A DNA stretch of 64,000 nt, taken from Deltaproteobacteria bacterium. Lineage in GTDB: Bacteria; Desulfobacterota; Binatia; UBA1149; JAJCZL01. The notes under the pieces are model-generated. The model had not been told where the DNA came from. It worked only from the letters and a program-made list of their open reading frames with translations, and did not search any database. The stretch is taken from assembly GCA_029262415.1 (NCBI GenBank), contig JAJCZL010000067.1:124001-188000 (forward strand), in the 5' to 3' direction. Of this stretch, positions 12,891-60,920 are shown one piece after another. The stretch's first letter is position 1. Every line of letters starts with the position of its first letter. A program made the translations under genes and the position numbers.

Positions 12891-12954
12891 GTCAGTGTCC
12901 TAACTCGAGCCCATGCCTCTGATACCCCCTTATAGGGGGGGCATGAGAAAGTCC

Positions 12955-12984
12955 TTGACAGTCGGCACAGCAGTTTTGTATAAA
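12955..12984 (+). promoter_or_regulatory. sigma70-type promoter of the MerR/diiron cluster
   Basis: A perfect -35 TTGACA (12955-12960), an 18-bp spacer and TATAAA (12979-12984) lie about 75 bp upstream of the MerR gene. The spacer is slightly long, as in promoters remodelled by MerR proteins (usually 19-20 bp). Just upstream is a G/C-run dyad, CCCCC-TTATA-GGGGG (12925-12939); downstream is an inverted repeat AAGTAGA-N11-TCTACTT (12999-13023). Either could be an operator. Confidence 0.65.
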
Positions 12985-12998
12985 CAATGCGTAGCGAC

Positions 12999-13023
12999 AA
13001 GTAGATAGTCGAACTTTCTACTT
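12999..13023. promoter_or_regulatory. inverted repeat, possible MerR operator
   Basis: AAGTAGA and TCTACTT form a perfect 7-bp inverted repeat with an 11-bp centre, just downstream of the expected transcription start of the promoter at 12955. Its position in the leader fits an autoregulatory operator for the following MerR gene, but no binding data can be read from sequence. Confidence 0.4.
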
Positions 13024-13059
13024 ACTAGTGCTGTGTAACGGCGGTTCCCCCGAATCCTC

Positions 13060-13818
13060 ATGAGCGAATCCATCGACAAACGGAATCTTTTGAAGATCTC
13101 CGACCTGGCCCGAGACACTGGAGTATCGACCGCCACCATCAAGTTCTACATACGCGAGGGCTTGCTGCCCAAGCCGACACTCAAGACCGGGCGCAACATG
13201 GCCTACTACGGCCGCGGCTTTGTCGAGCGCATCCGCGTCATAAAAGAGCTGCAGCAAAAGCGCTTCCTACCGCTCGACGTAATCCGTGCCATCCTCGACC
13301 GTGACTCTTCGGTAATCAGCGAGCGCGAGATCGACACCCTGCTGAGCGTGGAAGGGACGTTTTACGAGGCCATCCACTTCGCCCCCGGCCGCGAACCAAT
13401 GACGCGCAAAGAAGCGATCGAGAAGTACAACCTCGATCTCAAAGAACTTCAGTTCTCGATCGACCAGGGCATGCTGACGCCGGTAGTCCGCAGCGGGGTT
13501 GAAACCTTCGAAGGCGACGACCTGGCGATGCTCGAGGTGTTCTGCAAGCTGAAAGAGGCCGGCTTCAGCTCTGAGCTCATCCCGATTGAAACCACTATGC
13601 CGATCTACCTCGAGGCGATGGATAAGCTCGCCCAGGCCGAACTCAAGATCTTTACACGCGCTGTAACGGGAAAAGTGGACGACGGCGAGGTCGCGCAGAT
13701 GGCCCTTGAGGGCGTCAAATTGATCGAGGACTTTATCGTGCTGCTACGGCGCAAACGGATGCTCAAGGCCATTCAAGAGCTACGGCGCAACAATGAATCG
13801 ACAGGAACTGGCGAATAA
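13060..13818 (+). CDS. MerR-family transcriptional regulator
   Basis: About 252 residues. The N-terminal winged HTH has the MerR signature LKISDLARDTGVSTATIKFYIREGLL (residues about 11-36), a Tyr-rich wing (RNMAYYG) and a helical connection (VIKELQQKRFLPLDVIRAIL). The longer C-terminal half (about 150 residues) repeats HTH-like features (TRKEAIEKYNLDLKELQFSIDQGML) and ends in a basic coiled helix. There is no cysteine cluster, so it is not a typical metal sensor. It lies 18 bp upstream of the diiron gene and is almost certainly its regulator. Similar MerR proteins are common next to acyl-CoA and lipid genes in this type of genome. Confidence 0.88.
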   Translation: MSESIDKRNLLKISDLARDTGVSTATIKFYIREGLLPKPTLKTGRNMAYYGRGFVERIRVIKELQQKRFLPLDVIRAILDRDSSVISEREIDTLLSVEGTFYEAIHFAPGREPMTRKEAIEKYNLDLKELQFSIDQGMLTPVVRSGVETFEGDDLAMLEVFCKLKEAGFSSELIPIETTMPIYLEAMDKLAQAELKIFTRAVTGKVDDGEVAQMALEGVKLIEDFIVLLRRKRMLKAIQELRRNNESTGTGE

Positions 13819-13836
13819 CACTCTGGAGAAGAAACT

Positions 13837-14898
13837 ATGGCATCCGATCTTGTTGCAAAATCATTCGAGAGCATTGAAACGACCTACAACGCGGCGTTTC
13901 TTGCCGACTACGAACACCTGCGCGGCGATCTCGCGCGCCTCTATCAGCTTGCGAAGAACAACCAGTGGGACGGCAACAACTACCCCACAATCGATTGGTC
14001 GACCAAAGTCGATCCTGAAAAGCGCTTCTTCCCCGAAGAGCGCGCAGCGATCTACGGAACCAAGCACTGGAATAAGATGACGCAAAAAGAGCGCGACCGC
14101 TTCGGGCACGAGTACATGGCCTGGACGCTGTCGCAGTTCCTGCACGGCGAGCAGGGCGCGTTGCTTGCGACCTGTCAGATCGTCGATGCGGTCCCGAACA
14201 TCGACGCCAAGCTCTACGGCGCGACCCAGGTCGTTGACGAGGCGCGTCATGTCGAGGTGTATGACCGCTACCTACACCAAAACCTTGAGATCGTTTACCC
14301 GGTCAATCCTGAGTTGAAGAGCCTGCTCGACCAAATCCTCACCGATTCGCGTTGGGACATGAAGTACCTCGGGATGCAGAGTCTCGTCGAAGGTCTTGCG
14401 CTCGCCGCATTCCAGATGATACGCGATACGTGCGAGGAGCCGCTCATCCGCGAGATCACCAGAATGGTGATGAAGGACGAAACGCGGCACGTGGCCTTCG
14501 GGGTACTGAGCTTGCAGGACTACTATACCCAGTTAAGCGAGTCCGAGGTCAAAGAACGGGTCGAGTTCATCTACGAGGCTTCGCGTTTAATGCGCGACCG
14601 TCTGCTCGGCCGCGACGTTTACGAGAAGCTCGGCATGGACGTTGATGCCTGTGTCGAGTTGGAGTTACACAACGAGCTGCAACTTCAGTTCCGCCAAATC
14701 TTGTTCGCCAAGATTGTCCCTAATGTAAAGAAGCTCGGGCTATTGACGCCCGACCTACGCAAAGGTTTCGAAGACCTGGGAGTGCTCGAATACGAACACC
14801 TCCCGTCCTCTGAAGAGGAGCTCTACGCACCTGGCGGCGGTCTGGAAGATTTTGCACCGGGCGGAAATGGCGAAGAGGCCGTCCAGCTCGCTAGCTGA
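13837..14898 (+). CDS. ferritin-like diiron oxygenase/oxidase family protein
   Basis: About 353 residues, largely helical. A full set of carboxylate-bridged diiron ligands is visible: E105 (HGEQ), E135xxH138 (DEARH), E185 (VEGLA) and E215xxH218 (DETRH). This is the ExxH pattern of ferritin-like oxygenases (ribonucleotide reductase R2, AurF, acyl-ACP desaturase and others). The last 30 residues are acidic and Gly-rich, probably disordered. It has a GGAGAAG ribosome site and lies between a MerR regulator and a small HTH-like protein. No electron-transfer partner is adjacent. The substrate is unknown; the exact subfamily should be set by structure search. Confidence 0.82.
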   Translation: MASDLVAKSFESIETTYNAAFLADYEHLRGDLARLYQLAKNNQWDGNNYPTIDWSTKVDPEKRFFPEERAAIYGTKHWNKMTQKERDRFGHEYMAWTLSQFLHGEQGALLATCQIVDAVPNIDAKLYGATQVVDEARHVEVYDRYLHQNLEIVYPVNPELKSLLDQILTDSRWDMKYLGMQSLVEGLALAAFQMIRDTCEEPLIREITRMVMKDETRHVAFGVLSLQDYYTQLSESEVKERVEFIYEASRLMRDRLLGRDVYEKLGMDVDACVELELHNELQLQFRQILFAKIVPNVKKLGLLTPDLRKGFEDLGVLEYEHLPSSEEELYAPGGGLEDFAPGGNGEEAVQLAS

Positions 14899-14963
14899 CA
14901 GCAGCTTAGCGGAGAGGCCAAGTTCCGATGTTTGTATTTGATTTAAGGAAGGGAGTGCAACCA

Positions 14964-15449
14964 ATGAGCGAATCTCAAACCCCATCGCAAGAGAAGAGGA
15001 AGTCTAAGACCGTTTGTGTCGAAGACCCCGCGTTGACAATGGTCGAGCCCGACACTGTCACACCTTCGCAGTTCTTCGATAAAGGCTTGGCTGATTGCAG
15101 TCTCGTTCCTGAGAAGCGACTCATGCTCGCGGTGCTCGAAGACGCGATCGCGTCTTTCCAGCGCAACACGATCCAGACGAAAAAGAAGCTGACCGAGAGT
15201 GGTGAAGAGTTCGATGTCGAGTTGTGGCTCGAGTCCGACGACATGAGCTGGCCGTTCTCCTTCGCGTCGATCTGCCAGGCTTTAAACATGGAGCCCGAAT
15301 ACCTGCGCAAAGGCCTATCCTCGTGGAAAGACCGGGCGGCGACACAGACGAGCGCCGGCCAGATCTACCGCTTCCCCTTCCGTCGCGTAAACGGAAGGCG
15401 CCATTCGATAAACGCCAAGCGCGAACGGCGACGCGTTCGCGCTTCATAA
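14964..15449 (+). CDS. small HTH-like protein of unknown function (paralogue of 60492-60920)
   Basis: About 161 residues. I chose ATG 14964, which has an AAGGAAGGGAG ribosome site; an ATG at 14928 would add 12 residues. The central 110 residues match the product of 60492-60920: EPDTVTPSQFF / EPDTLLPAQFF, KRLMLAVLEDAI / RKLMLAVLQDAV, and the helix-turn-helix-like WPFSFASICQALNMEPEYLR / WPFSYENICDVLGLNHEYIR. This copy has an extra acidic loop and a strongly basic tail (RRVNGRR...KRERRRVRAS) suited to nucleic-acid contact. It is likely in the operon of the MerR and diiron genes. The function is not known to me. Confidence 0.75.
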   Translation: MSESQTPSQEKRKSKTVCVEDPALTMVEPDTVTPSQFFDKGLADCSLVPEKRLMLAVLEDAIASFQRNTIQTKKKLTESGEEFDVELWLESDDMSWPFSFASICQALNMEPEYLRKGLSSWKDRAATQTSAGQIYRFPFRRVNGRRHSINAKRERRRVRAS

Positions 15450-15482
15450 GTAAGGTACGTAGTACTTTTTACGACTCCGACG

Positions 15483-15530
15483 GGGTCAGGTGCTTTTTCA
15501 GGATGAAAATGCACCTGACCCTATTTTTTT
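15483..15530 (+). terminator. strong Rho-independent terminator / REP-like hairpin
   Basis: A perfect 11-bp stem GGGTCAGGTGC (15483-15493) / GCACCTGACCC (15511-15521) with a 17-nt loop is followed by TATTTTTTT. It ends the MerR-diiron-HTH operon. The stem resembles the hairpin at 25380-25421 (GGCCAGGCA / TGCCTGGCC), so both may belong to a dispersed repeat family. Confidence 0.8.
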
Positions 15531-18189: not shown

Positions 18190-20067
18190 ATGTACCACAC
18201 ACGATTCTCGAAGCCTGTATCTACCTTGCTCGCCTTCGCATTCACGTTCGCAGGGATGTCCGCCATCACAAGCCCGGCTCGGGCCGACGCCCCTGAGTGC
18301 CGCAAGAAAGCCGCAAGGATCGTCGGTAAGTTCGCGCAACTTCGCGCCAAGCAGATCATCAACTGCCGTATCAATGACGCGTGTGGACCCGACGATCTCG
18401 CGGCCAAACGCGAAAAACTCCGCAATGACCTGCGCACCCGGCTTAACAAGAAATGTGCTGACGTCGGTGCCGGCGAACTCGGTATGGGCGGCACCTGCCC
18501 CGACCCCACCGGAGTATGCACGCACGACCTCGCCGATGCCGCCGGTGTGATCGAGTGCATCCTGTGCATGTCGGGCGAAACCCTCGAACATTTACTCGAT
18601 GTCGTGCACGGCGATGCGGTGCCGGTCGCCGAGCATTGCGGTGGCTGCATCGGCTCGAGGTGTGCACCGGATGCATTCTGCGAACCGCCGACTGGAATCT
18701 GTGACGACGTATTCGACGTCGGAATGTGTAGCGAAGTTCCCGAGGCCTGCCCGCAGGTGTTCGATCCGGTCTGCGGCTGCGACGGACGGACCTACGGTAA
18801 CGACTGCGAGCGCCGCATGGCGCGCGTCGGTCTGCGTCACGACGGAGCGTGTAAACTACGCTGTGACGACGCCGACATCTGCCCCGACGGTACCTTTTGC
18901 GACGGCCTGCCCGGACTGTGCCGAATCGTCAACGACGGCGTCTGTGAACCAATTCCCGCGAACTGCACCGAGCAGTACGAGCCGGTCTGTGGATGCGACG
19001 GCACCACCTACGGTAACGACTGCCGTCGCCGTGCCGCCGGCGTGCGACTGCACCACCACGGCGCGTGCGTAACCTATTGCGGGGAGCTGTTCCCATTCGA
19101 TCCAACCCAGCCCGGCCCTGACGGACAGCCTATTCTCCCGCCTATCGAACAGTGCGCCGAGGGTAGCTACTGCGAACATCCGCCAGGCCGATGCACAGAG
19201 TTGGGCGGCCCCGGCGAGTGCATCCGTATCCCACAGGGATGCCCCGACGTCTGGGCTCCCGTGTGCGGATGCAACGGTATTACCTATGCAAACGATTGCG
19301 ACCGCATGGCCGCGGGCGTCTCCAAACAGCACGACGGCGAGTGTGAGCGGCGGTGTGGCGGCTTTGTGGGTTTGCCATGTGCGGGCGGAGAGGTCTGCGA
19401 GCTTCCGGCCGGTACCTGTAACTTCGCCGACTTGCTGGGCAAGTGCGTCCAGCGACCGGAAGTTTGCGCCGAGAACCTCGACCCGGTTTGCGGTTGTGAC
19501 GGTGAGACCTACTCGAACAACTGCGAGCGCTTGCGTGTCAGGGTTGCGCTCGACCACCACGGTGCGTGCCGGAGCAACTGTAAGACCGCCGGGCTAGGCT
19601 GCGGCGCACACGAGGTCTGCATTACCCAGCACGGCGATTGCGGCGGCACCGGCAAGTGTGTGCCGGCCCCCGAGATTTGTCCCCTCGGGATCGAAGTCGA
19701 TGCGCCTTTCCCGTTCTTTGCGGTCTGCGGTTGCGACGGCGTGACGTATCCGAACGCCTGCGAAGCAGCGCGGGCAGGCGTAGGCGTGGAGCACGAGGGA
19801 CCCTGCCACGGTGAGTTCGGATGCCTTTCGGATTCGGACTGCCCGGTTGGAAACGTCTGTTTACCGCCGCCGGGAATCTGCTTGTTGGTCGCCAGCCCGG
19901 TAATCCCGTTGGTCTGCCAGCCGATCCCCGACGATTGTACCGACGCACAGGAGCCGGTCTGCGGGTGCAACGGCACGACCTACAACTCGCACTGTGAGGC
20001 GCTCAGAAGTGGTGCCGGGTTCGGATATCCGGGGCCCTGCTTCGATTTTGTTCCGCCGTTGTTTTAG
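18190..20067 (+). CDS. secreted six-repeat Kazal-domain protein (putative protease inhibitor)
   Basis: About 625 residues, starting at an ATG after GGGGGTAGG. A signal peptide (residues 9-32, ending ARA) is followed by a 110-residue helical, Cys-containing domain (KKAARIVGKFAQLRAKQI...). Six Kazal modules then occur near residues 180-221, 252-293, 344-385, 419-460, 490-539 and 576-617, each with the core PVCGCDGxTYxNxC and a spaced terminal Cys. Between them are short Cys-rich linkers of the form CPDGTFCDGLPGLC, resembling EGF/TIL-like loops. Kazal domains are known serine-protease inhibitors, mostly animal, with scattered bacterial cases. The P1 residues vary among repeats, so several protease specificities are possible. 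Confidence 0.88.
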   Translation: MYHTRFSKPVSTLLAFAFTFAGMSAITSPARADAPECRKKAARIVGKFAQLRAKQIINCRINDACGPDDLAAKREKLRNDLRTRLNKKCADVGAGELGMGGTCPDPTGVCTHDLADAAGVIECILCMSGETLEHLLDVVHGDAVPVAEHCGGCIGSRCAPDAFCEPPTGICDDVFDVGMCSEVPEACPQVFDPVCGCDGRTYGNDCERRMARVGLRHDGACKLRCDDADICPDGTFCDGLPGLCRIVNDGVCEPIPANCTEQYEPVCGCDGTTYGNDCRRRAAGVRLHHHGACVTYCGELFPFDPTQPGPDGQPILPPIEQCAEGSYCEHPPGRCTELGGPGECIRIPQGCPDVWAPVCGCNGITYANDCDRMAAGVSKQHDGECERRCGGFVGLPCAGGEVCELPAGTCNFADLLGKCVQRPEVCAENLDPVCGCDGETYSNNCERLRVRVALDHHGACRSNCKTAGLGCGAHEVCITQHGDCGGTGKCVPAPEICPLGIEVDAPFPFFAVCGCDGVTYPNACEAARAGVGVEHEGPCHGEFGCLSDSDCPVGNVCLPPPGICLLVASPVIPLVCQPIPDDCTDAQEPVCGCNGTTYNSHCEALRSGAGFGYPGPCFDFVPPLF

Positions 20068-60491: not shown

Positions 60492-60920
60492 CTATGAGGC
60501 CTGCTGAAGAGGCGGCTCACCCACCGACGCTGCCGCCGGGGTCGTGTGCAAGACTGGCCGGTCAAGAACCGAAACAATCTTGGCGACCGTGTGGCGGATA
60601 GGTCCTTTCTGCTGCCGCCATTTTGACAGGCCGCGTCGTATGTACTCGTGGTTGAGACCAAGCACGTCGCAGATGTTCTCATAAGAGAAGGGCCACTCAC
60701 GCTCTCCCGAGCTGATCCATTCGTTGGCGTCCTCAAACAGGAGCCGACCACGGGGGTCACGCGCAAGTGCATATTTTTGATAGCACTCCACCGCGTCTTG
60801 GAGGACCGCGAGCATAAGTTTGCGCTCGCGTACAACCGTGCTTTCTCGCGAGAAAGCTGCGAAAAACTGGGCCGGCAACAGTGTGTCGGGCTCGAAAAGG
60901 TTCACAAACCGATCTGCCAT
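60492..60920 (-). CDS. small HTH-like protein, paralogue of 14964-15449
   Basis: About 142 residues. It shares EPDTxxPxQFF, RKLMLAVLQDAVECYQ and the helix-turn-helix-like EWPFSYENICDVLGLNHEYIRRGLSKW with the product of 14964-15449, and lacks that protein's basic tail. The core looks DNA- or protein-binding. The ATG at 60920 follows GGGAGGG 11 bp upstream. It stands alone behind a terminator. Function unknown. Confidence 0.75.
   Translation of the reverse strand: MADRFVNLFEPDTLLPAQFFAAFSRESTVVRERKLMLAVLQDAVECYQKYALARDPRGRLLFEDANEWISSGEREWPFSYENICDVLGLNHEYIRRGLSKWRQQKGPIRHTVAKIVSVLDRPVLHTTPAAASVGEPPLQQAS

Follow-up and report, generated by a model that had tools for sequence, protein, structure and literature searches.

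A MerR-type regulator and an R2-like diiron protein as a putative regulatory pair with a predicted operator

In the 64,000-nucleotide stretch of DNA that was analysed (the window), a gene encoding a MerR-type regulator is followed directly by one encoding a diiron protein. Judged from sequence, the two appear to belong together as a real and conserved functional pair, for which an operator can be predicted, and the pair looks like a regulatory unit that has gone undescribed. We consider it likely that the MerR protein binds the predicted operator and controls both itself and diiron oxygenases that act on a hydrophobic, probably lipid-like substrate.

Every element that the initial annotation had described at this locus (promoter, dyad, inverted repeat, three genes and a strong terminator) was located where it had been placed. 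The genes lie on the forward strand: merR (13060–13818; 252 aa), the diiron gene (13837–14898; 353 aa), which begins 18 bp after merR, and, following a 65-bp gap, a gene for a small conserved protein of about 161 aa (14964–15449), whose start is probably 14964 and not 14928, the longer start being absent from the orthologues with which it was compared. Gaps of 18 and 65 bp would fit a single transcript. A promoter-like TTGACA (12955–12960), an 18-bp spacer and TATAAA (12979–12984) can be read directly on the forward strand (12955–12984), and were missed by a simple promoter scan because the TATAAA lacks a final T. All 13 genomes of the order have TTGACAG ahead of merR; the TATAAA box is not conserved in the orthologous upstream regions of these genomes. 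The predicted operator is a 25-bp inverted repeat with 11-bp arms, AAGTAGATAGT-CGA-ACTTTCTACTT (12999–13023), that we propose as the MerR site; it is unique in the window and had no match in 100 shuffles of the window. A perfect dyad, CCCCC-TTATA-GGGGG (12925–12939, assigned to no strand), also directly readable, was absent from the orthologous merR upstream regions; it is thus probably unrelated to the unit, and we rejected it as a regulatory element. An intrinsic terminator on the forward strand (15483–15530), consisting of a hairpin (15483–15521; 18-bp arms, 3-nt loop) followed by TATTTTTTT, with a run of 7 T, closes the unit.

The merR product matched Pfam MerR_1 (PF13411) at 84.3 bits (cut-off 21.6) in two stretches, the second weaker, and comprises an N-terminal MerR winged HTH and a second, degenerate MerR-like region. 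These features, together with a palindromic operator (predicted here), are shared with MerR-family regulators including FtsR, but the score against the FtsR model was 45.6 bits, relative to a cut-off of 150. Close orthologues (58–69% identical) were confined, among 148 genomes of the class, to the window's order, where they occurred in all 12 of the other genomes searched. In contrast to the classical MerR metal sensors, the regulator has no conserved metal-binding cysteines: 25 relatives carry only 0–2, at unconserved positions. This sets it outside that group of sensors, and metal sensing was rejected. The earlier observation that metal-sensor cysteines are lacking therefore extends to the relatives, and the inducer may, as also suggested there, be the substrate of the oxygenase.

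The second protein had been described as having a full ferritin-like set of diiron ligands, and this was confirmed: the six residues E105, E135, H138, E185, E215 and H218 (E105, E135xxH138, E185, E215xxH218) do not vary across aligned sets of 25 and of 39 homologues. Its AlphaFold model (pLDDT 81) has an AurF/R2-like ferritin fold, and structure comparison yielded Z scores of 22–23 for R2lox (7qbp, Z 23.2); the top-ranking matches included AurF and R2 as well. R2lox has, in addition to this fold, the same ligand set (E, ExxH, E, ExxH), at positions that coincide in a profile alignment, but it is only about 17% identical, and the window's protein falls far below the NCBIfam cut-offs (39.7 bits, relative to 194 for the R2lox equivalog). 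Further, the residues of the Tyr-Val ether cross-link of R2lox are replaced, with M180 opposite the tyrosine in the profile alignment and A108 opposite the valine by spacing. Aldehyde-deformylating oxygenase provided the best PDB sequence match (5uxg) and shows the same ligand pattern, but is much shorter, and the window's protein did not reach the cut-off of that family's model or that of ribonucleotide reductase R2.

Conservation of gene order separates the pair from the trio. The complete arrangement of merR, diiron gene and small gene is kept in five of the 13 genomes of the order (the window's, G279 and G281–G283, of families f1 and f80), with diiron proteins 66–84% identical. The diiron gene is absent from between merR and the small gene in families f2 and f79, and is an optional middle member, while MerR and the small protein are neighbours in 13 of 13 genomes, apart from the diiron gene where it stands between them. 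Pairings of MerR and diiron genes recur elsewhere. In eight Binatota-type genomes (G092, G018, G334, G294, G282, G284, G295 and G297), a paralogous MerR (34–40%) lies directly after a paralogous diiron gene (41–44% in the aligned set), and G275 and G276 encode, in this order, MerR, an FAD/NAD/2Fe-2S (ferredoxin-type) reductase that is a plausible electron donor, and the diiron protein. Two cases come from other phyla: on one contig of Myxococcota (L192) and one of Chloroflexota (L212), a diiron gene has a MerR gene of the same family immediately before it. Diiron homologues from Streptomyces (48–52% identical) mostly have no adjacent MerR. In a tree of 50 diiron proteins, the MerR-linked genes are spread over at least two or three distinct positions. 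The original proposal that all three genes work together therefore stands for MerR and the diiron protein, on the strength of cross-phylum co-occurrence and the shared predicted operator, but not for the small protein, which follows MerR with or without the diiron gene and whose inspected relatives elsewhere are unlinked.

The 13 genomes of the order were searched for the predicted operator, defined as a pattern from merR promoters alone, allowing up to three mismatches. Fourteen distinct sites were found, and a reversed control pattern gave none. Eight sites are merR promoters, the site being intact in 8 of the 13 genomes, and each of the other six precedes diiron and/or SCP2(-like) genes: an unlinked diiron gene in G018, G275 and G276; an SCP2-like gene and then two diiron-family proteins, one without ligands (at G275:C28), in G275; a diiron and SCP2-like pair in G283; and an SCP2 gene in G276. 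Here “SCP2-like” is our own label for a partner of 150–173 aa without a Pfam match; true SCP2 (PF02036) was present only in G276. Because the pattern came from merR promoters alone, finding it again at diiron genes is an independent result, and we roughly estimate the chance of five of the six non-merR sites falling before diiron-family genes (some 10 among about 4500) at about 1e-12. A site with four mismatches occupies the same place before the same diiron gene in G274. The diiron genes bearing the operator in trans form a clade separate from the operon's own, and in five f2 genomes the operator at merR has decayed and MerR itself is kept. At one operator-bearing locus, which encodes an SCP2-like protein, a diiron protein and a ligand-less paralogue (L181, 2605–5338), the arrangement suggests that the paralogue is a dead partner in a heterodimer.

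The window's own genome contains the predicted operator once, with no copy near its second diiron gene, glpD or its diiron and SCP2-like locus; with this single occurrence there is no sign of a regulon extending past the operon, and a wider one in this genome was rejected. Diiron-MerR pairs elsewhere in the class have a related palindrome of the type TGCGTAGT-N3-ACTACGCA, behind TTGAC in most cases. A search of 148 genomes gave three near-exact copies (at most one mismatch), each ahead of a diiron gene belonging to such a pair, which shows rarity and not independence, since these copies helped to define the pattern. The Myxococcota promoter (L192) has, behind its TTGACA, the sequence GAGTAGATAGT-TCT-ACTATCCGC, which closely resembles the Binatota operator.

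From the layout, ligand set, fold, conserved linkage, conserved operator and the presence of that operator before unlinked diiron genes, we infer the binding of MerR to its site, repression, ligand, substrate and reaction as follows. A cysteine-poor, two-region MerR-type regulator would bind AAGTRGATAGT-N3-ACTWTCTACTT in its own promoter, making the operon autoregulated, and while bound would keep the transcription of all three genes low. MerR would be released or switched by a small hydrophobic molecule, for which the substrate itself, or a related acyl- or sterol-type lipid, is the most likely candidate. The diiron protein would activate O2 at an R2-like two-iron (or Mn/Fe) site and oxidise the substrate with electrons from a separate reductase. 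A hydrophobic ligand is suggested by the SCP2-type partners and by the R2lox-like fold; R2lox itself holds a fatty acid in its channel (PMC6399176).

Repression relieved by ligand is the mode of control that we favour, and the position of the operator bears on it. In seven merR promoters of relatives, the predicted operator begins 19 bp downstream of TTGACA, overlapping the −10 region and start. In the window the distance from the −35 element is 38 bp, which puts the operator downstream of TATAAA. Since it covers or follows the −10 region in these promoters, repression is more likely at merR than classical activation. Classical MerR activators bind an operator within the 19–20 bp spacer between the −35 and −10 elements and bend the promoter DNA. 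Such a position is seen at the trans diiron gene of four f2 genomes, where the midpoint of the predicted operator falls between TTGAC(A/T) and a weak −10, and MerR might accordingly act as a DNA-bending activator, the diiron enzyme detoxifying or degrading the inducer. The spacer there is about 17 bp, however, and spacers in general look like 17–18 rather than 19–20 bp, which, with the repressor-like position at merR, makes activation a possible but rather doubtful reading. A different target for the regulator is offered by a conserved cluster of glpD-like (glycerol-3-phosphate dehydrogenase), FAD-linked oxidase, glycerol-kinase-like and HAD phosphatase genes (L137, 6386–11589, and equivalents), which is divergent beside merR in most relatives, indeed in nearly all. 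MerR and the small protein could be the real unit, regulating this cluster, with the diiron gene a passenger inserted in two families, as their adjacency in every genome of the order, compared with 5 of 13 for the diiron gene, would allow. Yet the MerR-diiron pairing recurs in other families and phyla without either the small protein or glpD, the operator precedes unlinked diiron genes, and in the window's genome glpD (contig position 121716–123296) is 13.8 kb from merR, a distance indicating that a rearrangement separated them, with no operator found by that region; we regard this explanation as unlikely.

The diiron protein could also be read as an AurF-type N-oxygenase of a natural-product pathway. 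It matched the AurF family of p-aminobenzoate N-oxygenases (PF11583) at 61.3 bits (cut-off 29.6), the folds are similar, and AurF gave the highest query-normalised TM-score among the listed matches to the model (0.59). The third active-site histidine of AurF, which we take to be the one four residues before the last ExxH, nevertheless corresponds to V211 here, a position that is never His in 25 aligned homologues; no biosynthetic genes or cluster were found around the gene, and the R2lox fold is equally or more similar. This makes an N-oxygenase role very improbable. Because it lacks both this histidine and the cross-link tyrosine of R2lox, we place the protein within the superfamily but in neither named family.

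The small third protein has a basic tail carrying the motif YRFPFRRVNGRRHSI. The “HTH-like” label given to it in the initial annotation found no support here: searches of Pfam, NCBIfam and PDB profiles returned no match and its structure model was of low confidence (pLDDT 51), so that we set aside its assignment to a recognised HTH family and regard the HTH as putative. Its orthologues (67–77% identical) adjoin merR, or a diiron gene beside merR, in all 12 other genomes of the order. More distant relatives, mostly standing alone, are present in 148 of 148 genomes of the class at 1–11 per genome, and those inspected elsewhere in the class have no MerR or diiron neighbour. The window's genome holds seven paralogues, on contigs C44, C60, C75, C24, C42 and C22 and in the window itself (60492–60920, reverse strand; 142 aa), the last standing alone. 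The family is thus uncharacterised, expanded across the lineage and without a Pfam match, and the protein is the older positional partner of MerR, loosely tied to the MerR-diiron pair.

The remark that no named system has this composition is matched by the literature, in which we found none. No paper was found on Binatota with diiron proteins or on the MerR family with a diiron oxygenase, searches on combinations with AurF gave no such MerR-diiron system, and the main text of a Binatota paper (PMC8262859) mentions neither MerR, N-oxygenase, ferritin nor di-iron. A single-component regulator encoded with its oxygenase is a known kind of arrangement; a name for this set of regulator, operator and enzyme was not found. 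We put forward, as a tentative extension, that there may be an unnamed cross-phylum module in which a lipid-sensing MerR-type protein and a dedicated operator control several distinct classes of R2-like diiron oxygenase and SCP2-type lipid carriers, as a regulon oxidising one class of hydrophobic compound; the small class-wide protein would then be a further DNA-binding regulator. For most R2-like diiron proteins, a widespread group, no substrate is known; a conserved regulator whose operator can be predicted provides a handle on the inducer, and hence the substrate, in both uncultured and cultivable bacteria, and the operator is a sequence rule by which more regulon members may be found.

Several further loci were noted. 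In the window's own genome, genes for a diiron protein, an SCP2-like protein and a ferredoxin stand one after another behind a divergently oriented TetR gene (L006, 846–2829), with a DUF1329-like gene next; a DUF1329-like gene also adjoins the second diiron gene of this genome (L002). One diiron homologue that groups with an Acidimicrobiia gene is on a contig filed under a Bifidobacterium breve MAG (L215), probably a mis-binned contig. Within the window, positions 18190–20067 encode a secreted-looking 625-aa protein with many Kazal-like repeats (VCGCDGxTYxNxC), an unusual number for a bacterial protein.
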